DNA from: Diphasiastrum complanatum | Taxonomy: Eukaryota; Streptophyta; Lycopodiopsida; Lycopodiales; Lycopodiaceae | Reading direction: 5' to 3' | Length of the DNA: 64,000 nt | NCBI GenBank assembly: GCA_029204225.1 | Contig: CM055107.1 | Span: forward strand, 20,083,997 to 20,147,996 | Part shown: positions 16,201-31,200 of the stretch, piece by piece | Position numbering within the stretch: the stretch's first letter is position 1 | Layout: each line of letters starts with the position of its first letter | Program-made: the position numbers and the translations under genes | The notes under the pieces: generated by a model | Told to the model about the DNA's origin: nothing | The model's input: only the letters and a program-made list of their open reading frames with translations | Database searches by the model: none

Positions 16201-19200
16201 CTAAATGCACTTGTGGTTATGCCTCAACTACACATGTAGGTGCCTCATGAACCATCAAAGGAAAAGGTAGTAATGGTGCACATTGTGGAAATGGAACCAA
16301 ATAGGCTGTTGAATGTGCCTCATATGTTGCATATGGTCATGTATGAGCCTCATGTATAGATGTCGATGTTGGCACCTGATCTTTAGATGTGGGTGGATGT
16401 GCCTCGTTTGTAGATACCAGTACCTTCTGTTTAAGTAACTCTACCTAATAATGTTAAAGTGGTCTTAATGATCTACACTGGACTCTCATAGTTTTGGGGG
16501 GCAATTCAAGTTAGCCGTTTCATCCATTTGAATCGAAAAAACCTTGGCCCAACCCAAACCATCAATTCATTATAGCTTTTTTTTTCCGTTTTTTGTTATA
16601 GCAAAGCCAATGCAAATAAGGTTTAAGATACACGTATACCTCTATACATTGCAGAATATAATTGATCGTATCTTTTCTCCTAACTGTTGATTCCTTTATC
16701 ATAGATGCTAATACTCTCAAAAGCTTCAATGCTCTATATTATAAGTTATACCTTAAGAAAACTGAAAGTGAAGAGCTCTTTGAAATTGTTTTAAAACACA
16801 CCGTTTGGTACTTGATTGATGATAGCAAGACACCTAGTATTCGAAACTTAGAATCATATCATTGGCTTCAATGCTTAATGTTATAACTTAAGAGGATTGA
16901 AGAGCTCTTCAAAATTGGTTTGAAACATGGTAGAAGGTAATCCATAAGCCAAGACACGTCAATGGCCACACATACATCTGGCCCTAATTTGGGTCCTGTG
17001 ACATTATATATAGGCTATCAAGCACCTATAAATAAGAGTTCCAACACCAAGATAAGTCACAAGGATCAATCATAAAAGAGCTTTATTGCTTGAGCATTGA
17101 TTCAATGACATTTTATTTATATTGAATTAGAGTATCATATCGGCCTAGCTTATAGGAGAAGTTTGTGCATTGATTCAGCGAAGATTATATCCAAATTGAA
17201 TCAAATCTTCAAACTACAAGCAATCTGAACCAAAAAAGGAAAAATGTATTAATTGTACTAAAAGATTTCTTTTCTAGTTTGAATCGGGCCGATTCAAACC
17301 GATTCTAAAAAATATTGTTGAATCTCACCAACTCTCTAAGCTTTTTACTAGATCTCTTTGACTCTCAACACCTCACATTGTTAGATCTGTTTGTTTCTCA
17401 ATAGCTCTTTTATAGAGGTCTCATTGTCACTCGGTAAGTTGTTAATCAAGATCTACAATCTGTCCGCTCAAGTCTATCATCCTCAAGTCTTCTTCTTGAT
17501 ATCACTCTCTTCGTTGATCCACAAATTCTATCCTGGAATTCAAAAACCAAGCAAGCTGCAAGACTATATCTAGAGATATGCATAACTCAGATGAGATTTT
17601 AAACTTTGCTCACTTCCAAAAAACCTAAAGAAAACCTACGCTTTTTTTTTGTTAGTGTTAAGAGAAAACATCATGAGGCTTTTGAATAAAAGAAAGACTC
17701 TCGTGTAATTTGGATTTAGGCTACAAACAGAAAGGGTTCAAGGTAGCTCTAGGTTTTGAGTATGGGTATTGCTAGGGAAGGCTTTGAGCCATGTGACCTG
17801 GTACTCTATTGCCACATAGCTCAGCTTAAGAGAAAACTGAAAAATATTACATACTTGTAAAGTATTTGTGGGAGAGCATGAGGACTTGAGTAAGAAGAGA
17901 GAATACGAGCAAAGAAGAGTAATTGAAAGGTACAAAGGGAAGATGTAAAAAGGGCAACACCAATCAATAAGTAAACTTATAGTTTGATACTTTGAACTAA
18001 ACAAAAATCTATAACTATGTCTCAAATTTGTCTAACACAAAGCAAAAGAGAACTTGAATCACCAGCAACTCTTAATTCATAAAACTTCTTCCTATGAAAA
18101 ATTGATGATAGCACTTACCCATCTGCCGCTCCAGCACTTGCCAAAAGCTGTCCATCTTTGAGGTAAACAACAGCAGTGACACTCTTTGTCGTACTCTACA
18201 AAAACACAAAGAGACAAACGGTGAACATCAAACTTAGGAAAAAATTTGCTTATTCATATAAAATTCAATATTGCCATAGCTACAAAAAACAATAACACAA
18301 ATTGTGAGATTGGTCTCACCTTATGAGAGTGTTGCTTCCTCCTCCTTGAGGGAACATGGGCATCCTTGATCCATGCAACTGGCCTATAGCTTCAAACATT
18401 TACTCTCTCTCTCAAAGAAATAAGATTTTCCTAAGCTTTTCAAGGAATCTGTAGTGACGTTGCTTACTTTATTTGGTATTAGTATGCTTGATAAATTTTT
18501 TTTAAAAGTTAACAATAAGCTATTTAAGACCATAACAAGACCAATATATGATCTTGGGAGTAGTTTCATCTCTCTCTCTCTCTCTCTCTCTCTCTCTCTC
18601 TCTCTCTCTCTCTCTCTCTCTCTTTTGGATTTTTCAAGCTATTTTTGGATTTTCCAGCCAATCTCTAGGTCATTTTTGGATTTCCCAGCTATTTTAGAGG
18701 TTGTTTTTGGATTTTCCAGCCAATTTCAAGGTCGTTTTTAGATTTCCCAGCCATTTTCCAGGCTGTTTTTGGATTTTCCAGCCTATATCTAGGTCGTTTT
18801 TGGATTTCCCAGCCGTTTTCCGGGTCATTTTTGGATTTTCCAAGCTGTTTTTGGATTTTCCAGCCTATATCTACGTCATTTTTGGATTTTCCAGCCATTT
18901 TCCAAGTTGTTTTTGGATTTTCCAGCTAATACCTAGATCGTTTTTGGATTTCTCAGCCAATTTCTAGGTCGTTTCTGGATTTCCCAACAGATTTCTAGGT
19001 CACTTTTGCATTTTAGTTTGTACTAGATGTTTTTCTTTATTACATTTTGGAGATGTTTTATACGCTCCCATGGTTACCACACACTTGACATGTACTTTTT
19101 AGTCTTATATGCCTTTTGGCATGGAAAAGACATTAATAAAGCTTTCTCTCTCTCTCTCTCTCTCTCTCTCTCTCTCTCTCTCTCTCTCTCTCTCTCTCTC

Positions 19201-28200: not shown

Positions 28201-31200
28201 ATCTGAACATTCTCTCTCTCTCTCTCTCTCTCTCTCTCTCTCTCTCTCTCTCTCTCTCTCTCTCTCTCTCTCTCTCTCTCTCTCTCTCTCTCTCTCTCTC
28301 TCTTGCAGCTTGGAGTATGGAACTGCAACGACACACACTCACCATCCACGGCTGGAGATCTTACCGACTTCATCACAAATAGAGATATACTTTTCTTTAT
28401 GGAGACACGTGAGAGCTCAGAGCAAGGACTACCCACATTTGTAGGCTACAGATGAAATACGACAATCAGCCCTCACAACCATCACTCATTCAAACGAACG
28501 ATCGGTCTCAAATCTAAGCTGCTCGAGTATCCATAAGCGAGCTTTCAATAGTATCGACTTACAACGACGCAATGATTCCTTTAGGATGTGTAAGAATGAA
28601 CATTCTGCAGTGTTAACAAAATAGTGATTTTGAACGTCATGATCACAATTAAGTGCAGAATAAATGGTTAGTTTAACTACATGACCAATTCATATGCAAT
28701 TTCAAGACAATTTCAGTATCGAATTTTACGGACATACAGCCACGACAGTATCGAGACTAAATATATTGTCTGACCAGAGTTATCGAACACATGAAAGATC
28801 CGACAAAGCGAGACTATCGACTGTAAATACAAAAGCACTCAGGATTCAGTTTACAGGACAGAGACGCGATCAGCGAGTGGCAGAGGTTCAGGCGGAGTGG
28901 CATGTCTTTATCGAGAGTCATTACAGTCAGCGATAGAGCTTATCCGACATGATGGACAGGCACGATACATATGGGTTCACATTACTGGACAAGCTATTGG
29001 TTTGGATAGGGATCTCTTCATTGCTACCTGCTACTTTCCTCCAGAGTCTTCCTCCTCTGCGGACGGATCAGGTTCTCCTTGTGTTGATCTTTCAGCAGAC
29101 ATTGTCAGGTTCACAGATCGGGGTTATGTCCTTCTCACTGGGGACTTTAATGCCAGGACTGCTACTAGACAGGTGGATTTTCATGACACAGATGACATCT
29201 TACGTACACGAGCTATTGATTGTGAGGACATTGGTATCACCAGGACCTCAGAGGACGGGATGGGCCCTATCACGAGCTATGGAGAGTACCTTTTACAGAT
29301 GGGTGAAGCTCACGAGTTGGCCATTTATAATGGCTTAGCTTGTTGGTCACATTCTGGCAGATTCACTTGCCACCCACACAGTGGAGGACACAATGTTGTC
29401 ATGGGGTCACCAGTTTTTATCCCACTCCTGTCCGATTTCCAAATTCTTCACACCACCCTATCCGATCACTCCTTCCTATATTTCAGTATGGGCTCCATCC
29501 CGACCTTCCAACCACCCATTATTCCACTCATCTCCCGCGCACCCAAGTAGACTTTTGATCATTCCCACATCCACACATACCAGGAGGCCGTCAACTCATT
29601 TCTTCGTCGTTTCCCACACCACACACCGTTAGAAACACAAGCTACCTTCCTTACCACTTCACTCCATGATGCTGCATCATCTTCCTTTCCCTCCAAACCA
29701 CATCGGCGCTCACCCACTTCGTCACACCCCATCCGACCTCCCTGGTTTGACGCCGAATGTCGTTTCCTTCATCTCCAAGTCACCCAAGCTAGACTTCATA
29801 ACACACATCTTCTCTATGCAGCTCGTCGATCCCTCCATCACACCCTCTGCCAAAAAAAACGAGTCTATGAAACCCAAAAAGGGAAAAGCCTAGTCGATTC
29901 CCTTTGTAGTTCCTCCACTGGCGCCTTCTGGAAGGAATCCCCCGTACCCCACCTCCTCCCCTCACTGACCTTCATACCTGGACTACATACGCCACTACCT
30001 TATATACTATACCCACAGACACACCCATCTCCATCTCTCCCCGGCCGACTACCTTCACTTTCTTCACCTCGGACATGGTCTTGACGGCCATTAAGAGACT
30101 GAAAACCCGTCGCACCCGTGATATTGATGACCTTGAATTTGAACTTCTAATTCATGCTGCAGACACACTATCACCTACCCTAGCCACCTTGCTCAATCGA
30201 GCAGTTGTCTCCGGCTTCCCTTCCTCCTGGTGTACCAACATCATCCATCCCATTCACAAAACTGGTGACCCCATGGACCTCGGTAACTATCGCACCATTA
30301 TGGTTGGGCACATCATTGCTAAGTTATACGGCACCATCCTCCAGTCAGCAGTCAGTTATGAGGCAGAGTCCAAGCGATTACATGCATTGGGCCAGGCGGG
30401 TTTCAGGGCACACTACTCCACAACAGATCATATCTTCACTCTTCGGGCCATTATTGAGGAAGCTAGACACAAGAAAGAGCAAGTCTACTGTTGTTTTGTT
30501 GACTTCAGGAAAGCCTTCGACTCTGTTCCACGATCCCTCCTCATCCAGCGGCTACATGATCTCGGCTTTTCTACTGACATGATCTTGGCAGTGATGGCAC
30601 TATATGAGAGAGTCCTTGGTTGTTTTCGGAGTGACATCGGCATCTCAGATCATATCTGGAGCACTATAGGCGTTAAACAAGGTTGTTCTCTATCTCCAAC
30701 CTTGTTTGGGCTATATATCGACGAGCTTGAGAGAGTCCCTCGTGCAAAAAATTTGAGTGAATGACACAAATTTACACAAAACCCAACAATTTCCACAACC
30801 ATGTACAAAGAACTATGCTAGAGTTAATCTAGAAGATGTCTCGATTCATCTATAGACAGTAAAGTCTCAGCCAAAATGACTGATTGCAATACTTGTCCGA
30901 AAAATGCACCAAGCCACTAGAAAATATGCTCGTAGTTAAACAAATTGTGTCTTTTCAATCTGAAAACTGATAGTATTAAAAGCATTCTTACTATGACTTA
31001 CTTTCATGAAAAGGATGCATGGACACAGATTTTACACTGCCATTGTGCCCCATCATAGTTCCCTTTTCTTTTAGCAGATTCATATCCCATAGTTTGATCT
31101 GCAAAATTTATGCCAAACTTGAAGATGTTACTAAAAACAGACACTTTCTACGTTCACTTCACAATGTTGTTTCAAGATCTTATAATGACATATCTATGTT

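Follow-up and report, generated by a model that had tools for sequence, protein, structure and literature searches.

A group of LINEs in the land plant Diphasiastrum complanatum with probable (TC)n targeting, a covarying 3' hairpin and a conserved in-frame UAG

Kibi and Koshi, both of the Tx1 clade, are microsatellite-specific long interspersed nuclear elements (LINEs) of fish that insert into (TC)n and (TTC)n respectively, and human LINE-1 is characterised by a T-rich target site and poly(A). Togen, another LINE of animals, is specific for (TG)n microsatellites (PMC4640811). In plants, the ME1 lineage of L1 studied by Ohshima conserves a 3' stem-loop with a UCU loop and a CGAG flank (PMC3747384), one review names only L1 and RTE as plant LINE superfamilies (PMC9033089), and microsatellites are described as general landing pads for plant elements (PMC12477314). 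Microsatellite-targeting LINEs are known in animals, and so are plant L1s with a covarying 3' stem-loop, the latter with other motifs. Here we analyse a stretch of 64,000 nucleotides of Diphasiastrum complanatum (the window; assembly GCA_029204225.1, contig CM055107.1, positions 20,083,997 to 20,147,996), which contains four elements, E1 to E4. They are very probably members or remnants of a large LINE group that inserts into (TC)n in one orientation, the sense strand being the TC strand. The sequences themselves demonstrate the shared 3' module with its covarying hairpin, several copies flanked by TC on either side, LINE-free TC tracts, and the use of one repeat's tract by different subfamilies. 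Among the titles listed by searches of open-licence papers for LINEs aimed at microsatellites, for plants and for stop readthrough in LINEs, we recognised none as describing this group.

(TC)n tracts as insertion target

Five TC tracts of at least six units are found in the window, all on the + strand and every one touching LINE parts. LINE parts start directly after three of them (at 22277, about 26242 and 28304), as the original prediction, made from the letters of the window, had noticed. Elements and tracts are the following:

18569..18623 (tract span 18569-18622), +: (TC)27 tract on the 5' side of E1
18624..19144, +: E1, short or 5'-truncated, with 31-bp tandem repeats and the shared 3' module, and TC on both sides
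19145..19202, +: (TC)29 tract, at the edge of repeat family R
19203..19500, +: right flank of E1, belonging to the high-copy repeat family R, other copies of which supply empty and filled sites
21997..22276, +: (TC)140 tract directly 5' of E2, with a single-copy left flank
22277..26180, +: E2, a defective LINE
26181..26241 (tract span 26181-26240), +: TC tract separating E2 and E3, which lie head to tail
26242..27262, +: E3, the 5' part of another LINE
28211..28303 (tract span 28211-28302), +: (TC)46 tract directly 5' of E4
28304..30760, +: E4, a LINE from the endonuclease region on, with a reverse transcriptase (RT) match to about 30740 and no 3' end

The comparison of empty sites, proposed earlier as a way to see whether (TC)n preceded insertion, was possible with family R. 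A search with the right flank of E1 gave 2,568 candidates, of which 40 were scored. Besides E1, 24 copies start at query position 4 or lower, and for 20 of them we examined 260 bp of upstream sequence (loci are cited by L numbers). Ten of these 20 copies have the usual left flank of R and 4 to 77 TC units, with no LINE; two of them (L098 and L100) are near-identical, which leaves nine independent empty sites. In four others a LINE 3' end stands at the tract: A-type in L095 and L096, B-type like E2 in L106, and one with (AATTC)n in L097. E1 is a fifth LINE at an R tract. The (AC)n of R is retained beyond the TC in L096 and L106, as in several empty sites. The remaining six copies (L093, L094, L099, L101, L102 and L108, including two near-identical pairs) have another left side and no LINE, and L093 and L094 have no TC tract either. 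On contig C21 the left and right parts of R lie 13.6 kb apart on one strand (41672919-41673084 and 41686706-41686993), possibly a large filled site, which could not be read.

The R copies, compared with each other, show that (TC)n was present before the LINE inserted and that different subfamilies use the same tract of one repeat. They also bear on a different explanation, in which insertion has no preferred site and (TC)n tails arise when the RT slips on its template, as in other LINEs with short repeat tails, so that TC found at a 5' end would be the tail of a neighbouring LINE. We consider this very improbable, since TC occurs LINE-free in half of the R copies examined and random insertion would not bring different subfamilies to the same tract.

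For the 5' ends we used the DNA around a sample of LINE copies. The 3' motif AAAAGACRTTAATAA has 8,210 exact matches (4,078 + 4,132) in the 1.74 Gb genome, compared with 29 (16 + 13) for the reversed pattern; the sample of 66 copies, selected without regard to the tail, consists of the two window copies and 64 copies from contig C1, which are the first among 100 listed places. In this DNA there are 111 TC tracts (both strands, at least five units), and 24 of them have homologues starting at the tract end. Ten of the 24 are clean LINE 5' junctions (L021, L024, L026, L027 at 2520, L039, L046, L052, L055, L069 and E2), where the homologues lack upstream TC and the left side is unrelated; together with the LINE-free R copies they bear out the predicted targeting of (TC)n. 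L018 and E4 behave alike apart from a single homologue in each case whose left side shows some similarity, and are partly ambiguous; L056 has no left side for comparison, and the remaining 11 are non-LINE junctions by this test. E1 counts among these 11, since what aligns with it are the 31-bp repeats of E1 itself. Homology break points alone, used as a general count of 5' ends, were dropped, since the conserved last 110-160 bp are common to subfamilies with different upstream sequence.

The 5' truncations lie at various internal points, in the regions of the endonuclease, the RT and the 3' end, and the copies still begin at TC, so that TC cannot be part of the element. The idea that the tracts are the element's own 5' and 3' terminal repeat, copied along with it, could appeal to E1 and E2, each of which has TC on either side; it is contradicted by these truncated copies and is extremely improbable. 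With regard to slippage, the left sides of the 12 best junctions are divided: a LINE 3' module precedes the TC in six of them and an uncharacterised type of 3' end does so in L024, as neighbouring tails would give, but the other five (L039, L046, L052, E2 and E4) have no LINE 3' module there. No exact repeat of at least 11 nt of the post-tail flank, as expected of a target-site duplication, was found in the upstream DNA examined for L010-L029 and the window, where a duplication within TC would be indistinguishable. An empty site for E2 was not obtainable, its left flank being single copy, and inside the LINE sample no empty sites were recognised among the matches listed.

The orientation of the elements is constant in the DNA examined. 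Thirteen of the 66 tails are directly followed by part of another LINE in the same direction (in a list compiled by hand), an antisense module occurs within 60 nt after none of 102 TC tracts, and (GA)6 occurs within 80 nt after none of the 66 sense modules. TC tracts on the strand opposite to the sampled LINE are found in L011, L016, L017, L019 and L024, because such tracts are common in the genome: there are at least 73,535 that begin with T and have 12 or more units, far above the number of exact-motif LINE ends. The reversed pattern of (TC)12 is a TC tract itself and hence no control, so the density of TC away from LINEs rests on this count. Such abundance, and the proposal of microsatellites as general landing pads of plant elements (Kejnovsky 2013, as described in PMC12477314), would suit the explanation that many elements collect in (TC)n tracts simply because insertions are tolerated there or the DNA is unstable (open DNA, breaks), without any endonuclease preference. 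That is very improbable, given the single orientation relative to the TC strand and the junctions lying exactly at the tract, both of which are expected of strand-specific nicking and priming. The predominance of TC also counts against it: among microsatellites of at least eight units there are 53 TC as against 4 AC, 1 AT and 1 GC tracts in 242 kb, though this DNA was chosen around LINE copies.

The 3' module, its tails and its hairpin

E1 ends with CTTTTTAGTCTTAT-ATGCC-TTTT-GGCAT-GG-AAAAGACATTAATAAAGC-TT(TC)29 and E2 with CTTTTTGGTCTTAT-GCACC-CACG-GGTGC-CC-AAAAGACGTTAATAAGC(CT)30, and the two modules reach 19144 and 26180, exactly where they had been predicted. The last ~130 bp of E1 are common to 47 of the 65 other sampled copies. 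The shared motif is indeed present in both elements, but E2 reads AATAAGCC, one base off the ...AATAARGC first proposed. When three mismatches are allowed, the motif has 12 matches inside the window against 9.2 expected, which is not significant; its exact matches over the genome are. The hairpins are located as follows:

19102..19131, +: E1 3' hairpin with outer stem GTCTT/AAGAC, inner stem ATGCC/GGCAT and loop TTTT
26141..26170, +: E2 3' hairpin with outer stem GTCTT/AAGAC, inner stem GCACC/GGTGC and loop CACG

At least six TC units are found within 80 nt of the module in 53 of the 66 copies, and four or five units only in 4 of 66. Genome-wide, at least 1,484 of the 4,078 forward-strand copies have (TC)6 no more than 10 nt from the motif; the count with variable gap is uneven by strand (1,484 and 4,713), several spans being returned per reverse-strand place, and the forward figure alone is used, as a lower bound. 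No run of eight or more A, as a poly(A) tail would give, lies within 60 nt after the module in any of the 66 copies.

In 30 tails TC is mixed with another repeat, and in 30/30 the TC run is distal (one has further TTC beyond it). The proximal unit follows the subfamily, being TAATTC in 9/9 C-type copies, TTTC in 20/51 A-type and 3/6 B-type copies, and TTC in 3/51 A-type copies. Most simply, the RNA would serve as template for the proximal unit, with slippage during copying, and the target would supply the distal TC. It is true that the proximal TTTC, TTC and TAATTC repeats resemble slippage products, as tails made by the RT would; the TC itself, however, lies distal to them in all mixed tails and is common to subfamilies with different proximal units. 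The original prediction left it undecided whether the group targets or makes (TC)n: targeting stands, while making is less well supported, given the position of TC beyond the template-like repeats.

Two observations concern ends of other kinds. A second and slightly different hairpin (GTACC/GGTAC) comes after the TAATTC repeats of one C-type LINE end, in L018 (place 5526, - strand), and is followed by (TC)53 and another LINE. In L011, L020 and L024 another 3' end type, GATCCC-ACAA-GGGATC ..CTCGGCATGGTGGCC (a variant in L020), lies upstream of TC tracts and is perhaps one more TC-associated element family.

Single-sequence folds of the hairpin give an outer 5-bp helix, an inner 5-bp helix and a tetraloop. 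It had been predicted that the stems of E1 and E2 differ and yet both pair, which is correct, whereas the 6-bp stem proposed for E2 would close a loop of only 2 nt and is in fact a 5-bp stem closed by the tetraloop CACG, and the outer stem GUCUU/AAGAC (GTCTT/AAGAC in DNA), present besides the inner one, had been overlooked. Scoring was possible in the 64 of 66 copies that could be anchored on the left arm: the inner stem pairs 5/5 in 49, fewer in 13, and is unscorable in 2. The main fully complementary types are AUGCC/GGCAU (31), GUGCC/GGCAC (6), GCACC/GGUGC (5) and GUACC/GGUAC (3), and four further copies reach full pairing through G-U. When right arms are swapped among the 17 distinct stems, a mean of 62.0 of 85 positions pair compared with 70 observed, and only 2 of 10,000 swaps are as high.

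We also evaluated covariation in an alignment of 40 distinct modules, 35 with the exact motif and five taken from upstream of other TC tracts. The hairpin has 94.1% of its cells paired, against at most 59.6% when it is slid along the alignment; 5 of 10 pairs are changed on both sides (6/500 shuffles as high), and there are 20 double-change cells compared with 4.5 in shuffles (0/500 as high). Four of the five double-changed pairs belong to the inner helix, and the outer helix is changed on both sides only once (UA to CG, in L027); little of its variation is visible because sampling by the exact motif fixes its right arm. Maintenance of the 3' hairpin by compensatory change, a property of stringent-type LINEs, is supported, in agreement with the selection on structure originally suggested. 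That the hairpin would also be the site recognised by the RT is inferred by analogy.

Encoded proteins, the UAG junction and neighbouring sequences

The coding parts of E2, which contain open reading frames (ORFs) 1 and 2 only as remnants, are these:

22652..23188, +: ORF1 remnant, the C-terminal part of which (22802-23188) has its best fold matches with human LINE-1 ORF1p
23189..23191, +: conserved in-frame TAG between ORF1 and ORF2
23192..25768, +: ORF2 remnant in several frames, with endonuclease region, partial RT and a C-terminal Cys/His-rich part
23198..23232, +: GC-rich hairpin 3' of the TAG (GGGG..CGGG / CCCG..CCCC), its GGGG arm 6 nt beyond the TAG

The 5' end of E2 is ~330 bp shorter than in a related copy in L013/L014, and an internal loss has removed most of its RT domain, so that the RVT_1 match covers profile positions 157-194 of 205 and is under the curated cut-off. 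E4 has a good RT match (2.4e-16), and its endonuclease region is 41.7% identical with that of E2 over 199 aa; an ORF1-like stretch of E3, inside 26714-27013, is about 34-36% identical with ORF1 of E2 (35.5% over 76 aa). An uninterrupted ORF2 of 1183 codons was found in L018, with an endonuclease (PF03372, Exo_endo_phos, 2.5e-14) followed by an RT (PF00078, 1.6e-33). The group is of the apurinic/apyrimidinic endonuclease (APE) type, having endonuclease and then RT in one ORF. The solved structures nearest to this ORF2 by sequence are R2 (5.7e-24) and human L1 ORF2p (1.2e-21), which are nearly equal. No L1 ORF1 match was found by sequence for ORF1 in Pfam or PDB; in a low-confidence model of the C-terminal part of E2 ORF1, built from two sequences (mean pLDDT 62.3), all six fold matches at E of 0.001 or less are human LINE-1 ORF1p. 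Because of this fold match we lean, on the basis of the model, towards the L1 group (L1/Tx1).

ORF1 runs in frame into a TAG with ORF2 directly after it in L018, L020, two copies in L021-L023 and E2. In L018 (junction segment L018:8165-8224:-) there is no Met before the endonuclease: the endonuclease match begins at residue 22 of ORF2, and the first Met is found only well within it. The pattern that follows the stop, GRANTNGGGGYNCYCGGGNNTGGGAGC, occurs at 685 places in the genome and is preceded by TAG in 647 of them (94.5%), the controls being 0 in both cases. We examined 25 junctions, 20 in list order (L070-L089) and five from loci of the LINE sample: 22 have TAG in frame, two have it shifted by one base and one has CAG, and neither TAA nor TGA occurs.

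A GC-rich hairpin is predicted after the stop in 23/23 distinct sequences (three of them without in-frame TAG), with energies from -12.9 to -33.1 kcal/mol; some predicted folds pair nearer to the stop than the GGGG arm, L023 at 4914 prefers another pairing, and z-scores of five of these hairpins range from -1.5 to -2.3. GGGG/CCCC and CGGG/CCCG are nearly invariant, with 91.7% of cells paired compared with at most 79.6% when slid, and for this reason cannot be tested by covariation; RNAalifold gave two other pairs with double changes. It is probable, judging from these sequences, that ORF2 is made by readthrough of the UAG as an ORF1-ORF2 fusion. Reinitiation at ORF2 is disfavoured because the required AUG is absent, and splicing is a rival that may join the two ORFs. 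A reading of UAG as a sense codon was ruled out, as the 1183-codon ORF2 has no other in-frame TAG and the best NAC-gene matches (PF02365) are open. PF02365 has 98 matches in this genome and none in 14 control genomes, which fits a land-plant host, NAC-domain genes being known from green land plants and close relatives of these.

Other features of the window are more distant from the subject. An Rfam scan of the window gave no family at gathering threshold. Short exon-like segments resembling, by eye, a WD40 protein of the CDT2/DTL kind extend over about 18100-33100 (-), and E2-E4 would then sit in one intron. A 363-aa open frame at 34345-35436 (-) has no Pfam family at cut-off and resembles a fragment of a Penelope-type RT (motif DFTTLYTKI). 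Direct repeats 97-99% identical at 38257-38699 and 41185-41655, about 2.9 kb apart, are likely the long terminal repeats of a young element of that type, and a reading frame that appears Copia-like by eye lies beside them at 37818-38258. A duplication is present at 43241-43513 and 44248-44519, with a spacing of about 1 kb and pieces 81-92% identical.

Proposed insertion cycle and comparison with known systems

With slightly more belief than doubt, we propose that these elements form a plant LINE clade combining three properties: strand-specific targeting of (TC)n that is renewed by its own insertions, giving self-propagating head-to-tail arrays; a covarying 3' hairpin as handle of the RT; and programmed UAG readthrough that gives ORF2 only as an ORF1-ORF2 fusion, an expression strategy for a LINE comparable to that of gag-pol. 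The endonuclease would nick the (GA)n strand, and the primer would pair with the pyrimidine-rich 3' terminus that follows directly on the hairpin in the RNA (..AAUAAAGCUUUC), the hairpin positioning the RT on the RNA. Slippage would then yield the TTTC, TTC or TAATTC repeats that adjoin the element, and the second strand would be attached within the same tract, so that the 5' end, often truncated, is bordered by (TC)n. With two TC tracts left by every insertion, new insertions could stack head to tail.

Several observations weigh against reading the elements as (TC)n-targeting LINEs with these properties. Besides the window copies, the sample consists of 64 places, the first of 100 in the list, from a single contig, and in many of the copies either the 5' end cannot be identified or TC is absent upstream within the DNA examined. 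E1 has a left flank that does not match the one typical of R, and no 5' junction could be read at a filled R site. Copies without TC tails, which were originally regarded as damaging, do exist as a minority: a repeat tail is absent from 3 of 66 (L016, L025 and L048), and 6 of 66 have TTTC or TTC repeats only. In 4 of the 53 TC-tailed copies the six-unit run starts beyond the first 45 nt; in L015 it comes after unrelated sequence and in L018 after the second hairpin. In the 3' hairpin, ACGCC/GGCAU (4 of the 64 anchored copies) and ACGCT (1) have a C-A mismatch in the stem. The named helices of the post-stop hairpin have no double changes, their 5' arm being fixed by the search pattern and their 3' arm free.

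With thousands of insertions, natural empty sites and several hairpin subfamilies, target choice, tail formation and hairpin recognition are separable in this genome, and TC targeting helps to explain how such genomic parasites choose their landing places. Stop readthrough between ORF1 and ORF2, if true, would add to the routes of LINE expression already known (reinitiation, frameshifting and StopGo). A (TC)n-specific pair of endonuclease and RT could serve gene insertion at repeats.

The D. complanatum group shares with the animal microsatellite LINEs (Togen, Kibi and Koshi) the insertion into one kind of microsatellite, but it is found in a land plant, has template-like proximal repeats with distal TC and has a UAG in the same frame between its ORFs; we do not claim membership of those families. 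It resembles human LINE-1 in the APE endonuclease with RT and in the ORF1 fold match (from a low-confidence model), and differs from it in the TC target and in an ORF2 without an early AUG of its own. Like the plant L1s of the ME1 lineage, the group has a hairpin near the RNA 3' end, with variable stem letters, compensatory change and conserved flanking bases; unlike them, it has a two-part stem including GUCUU/AAGAC and no poly(A) tail, and the UCU loop and CGAG flank, as described in PMC3747384, are absent from our alignment of modules. The gag-pol junction of Moloney murine leukaemia virus also has one in-frame UAG between an upstream protein and the RT protein, with an RNA structure a few nt downstream (PMC5009743), whereas here we have a LINE with a predicted simple hairpin and a junction known from its sequence alone. 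Finally, the stop-start (UAAUG) translational coupling of SART1 joins two LINE ORFs by a special translation step with a downstream structure (PMC5972666), as may happen in D. complanatum, where the start of ORF2, unlike that of SART1, has no AUG.

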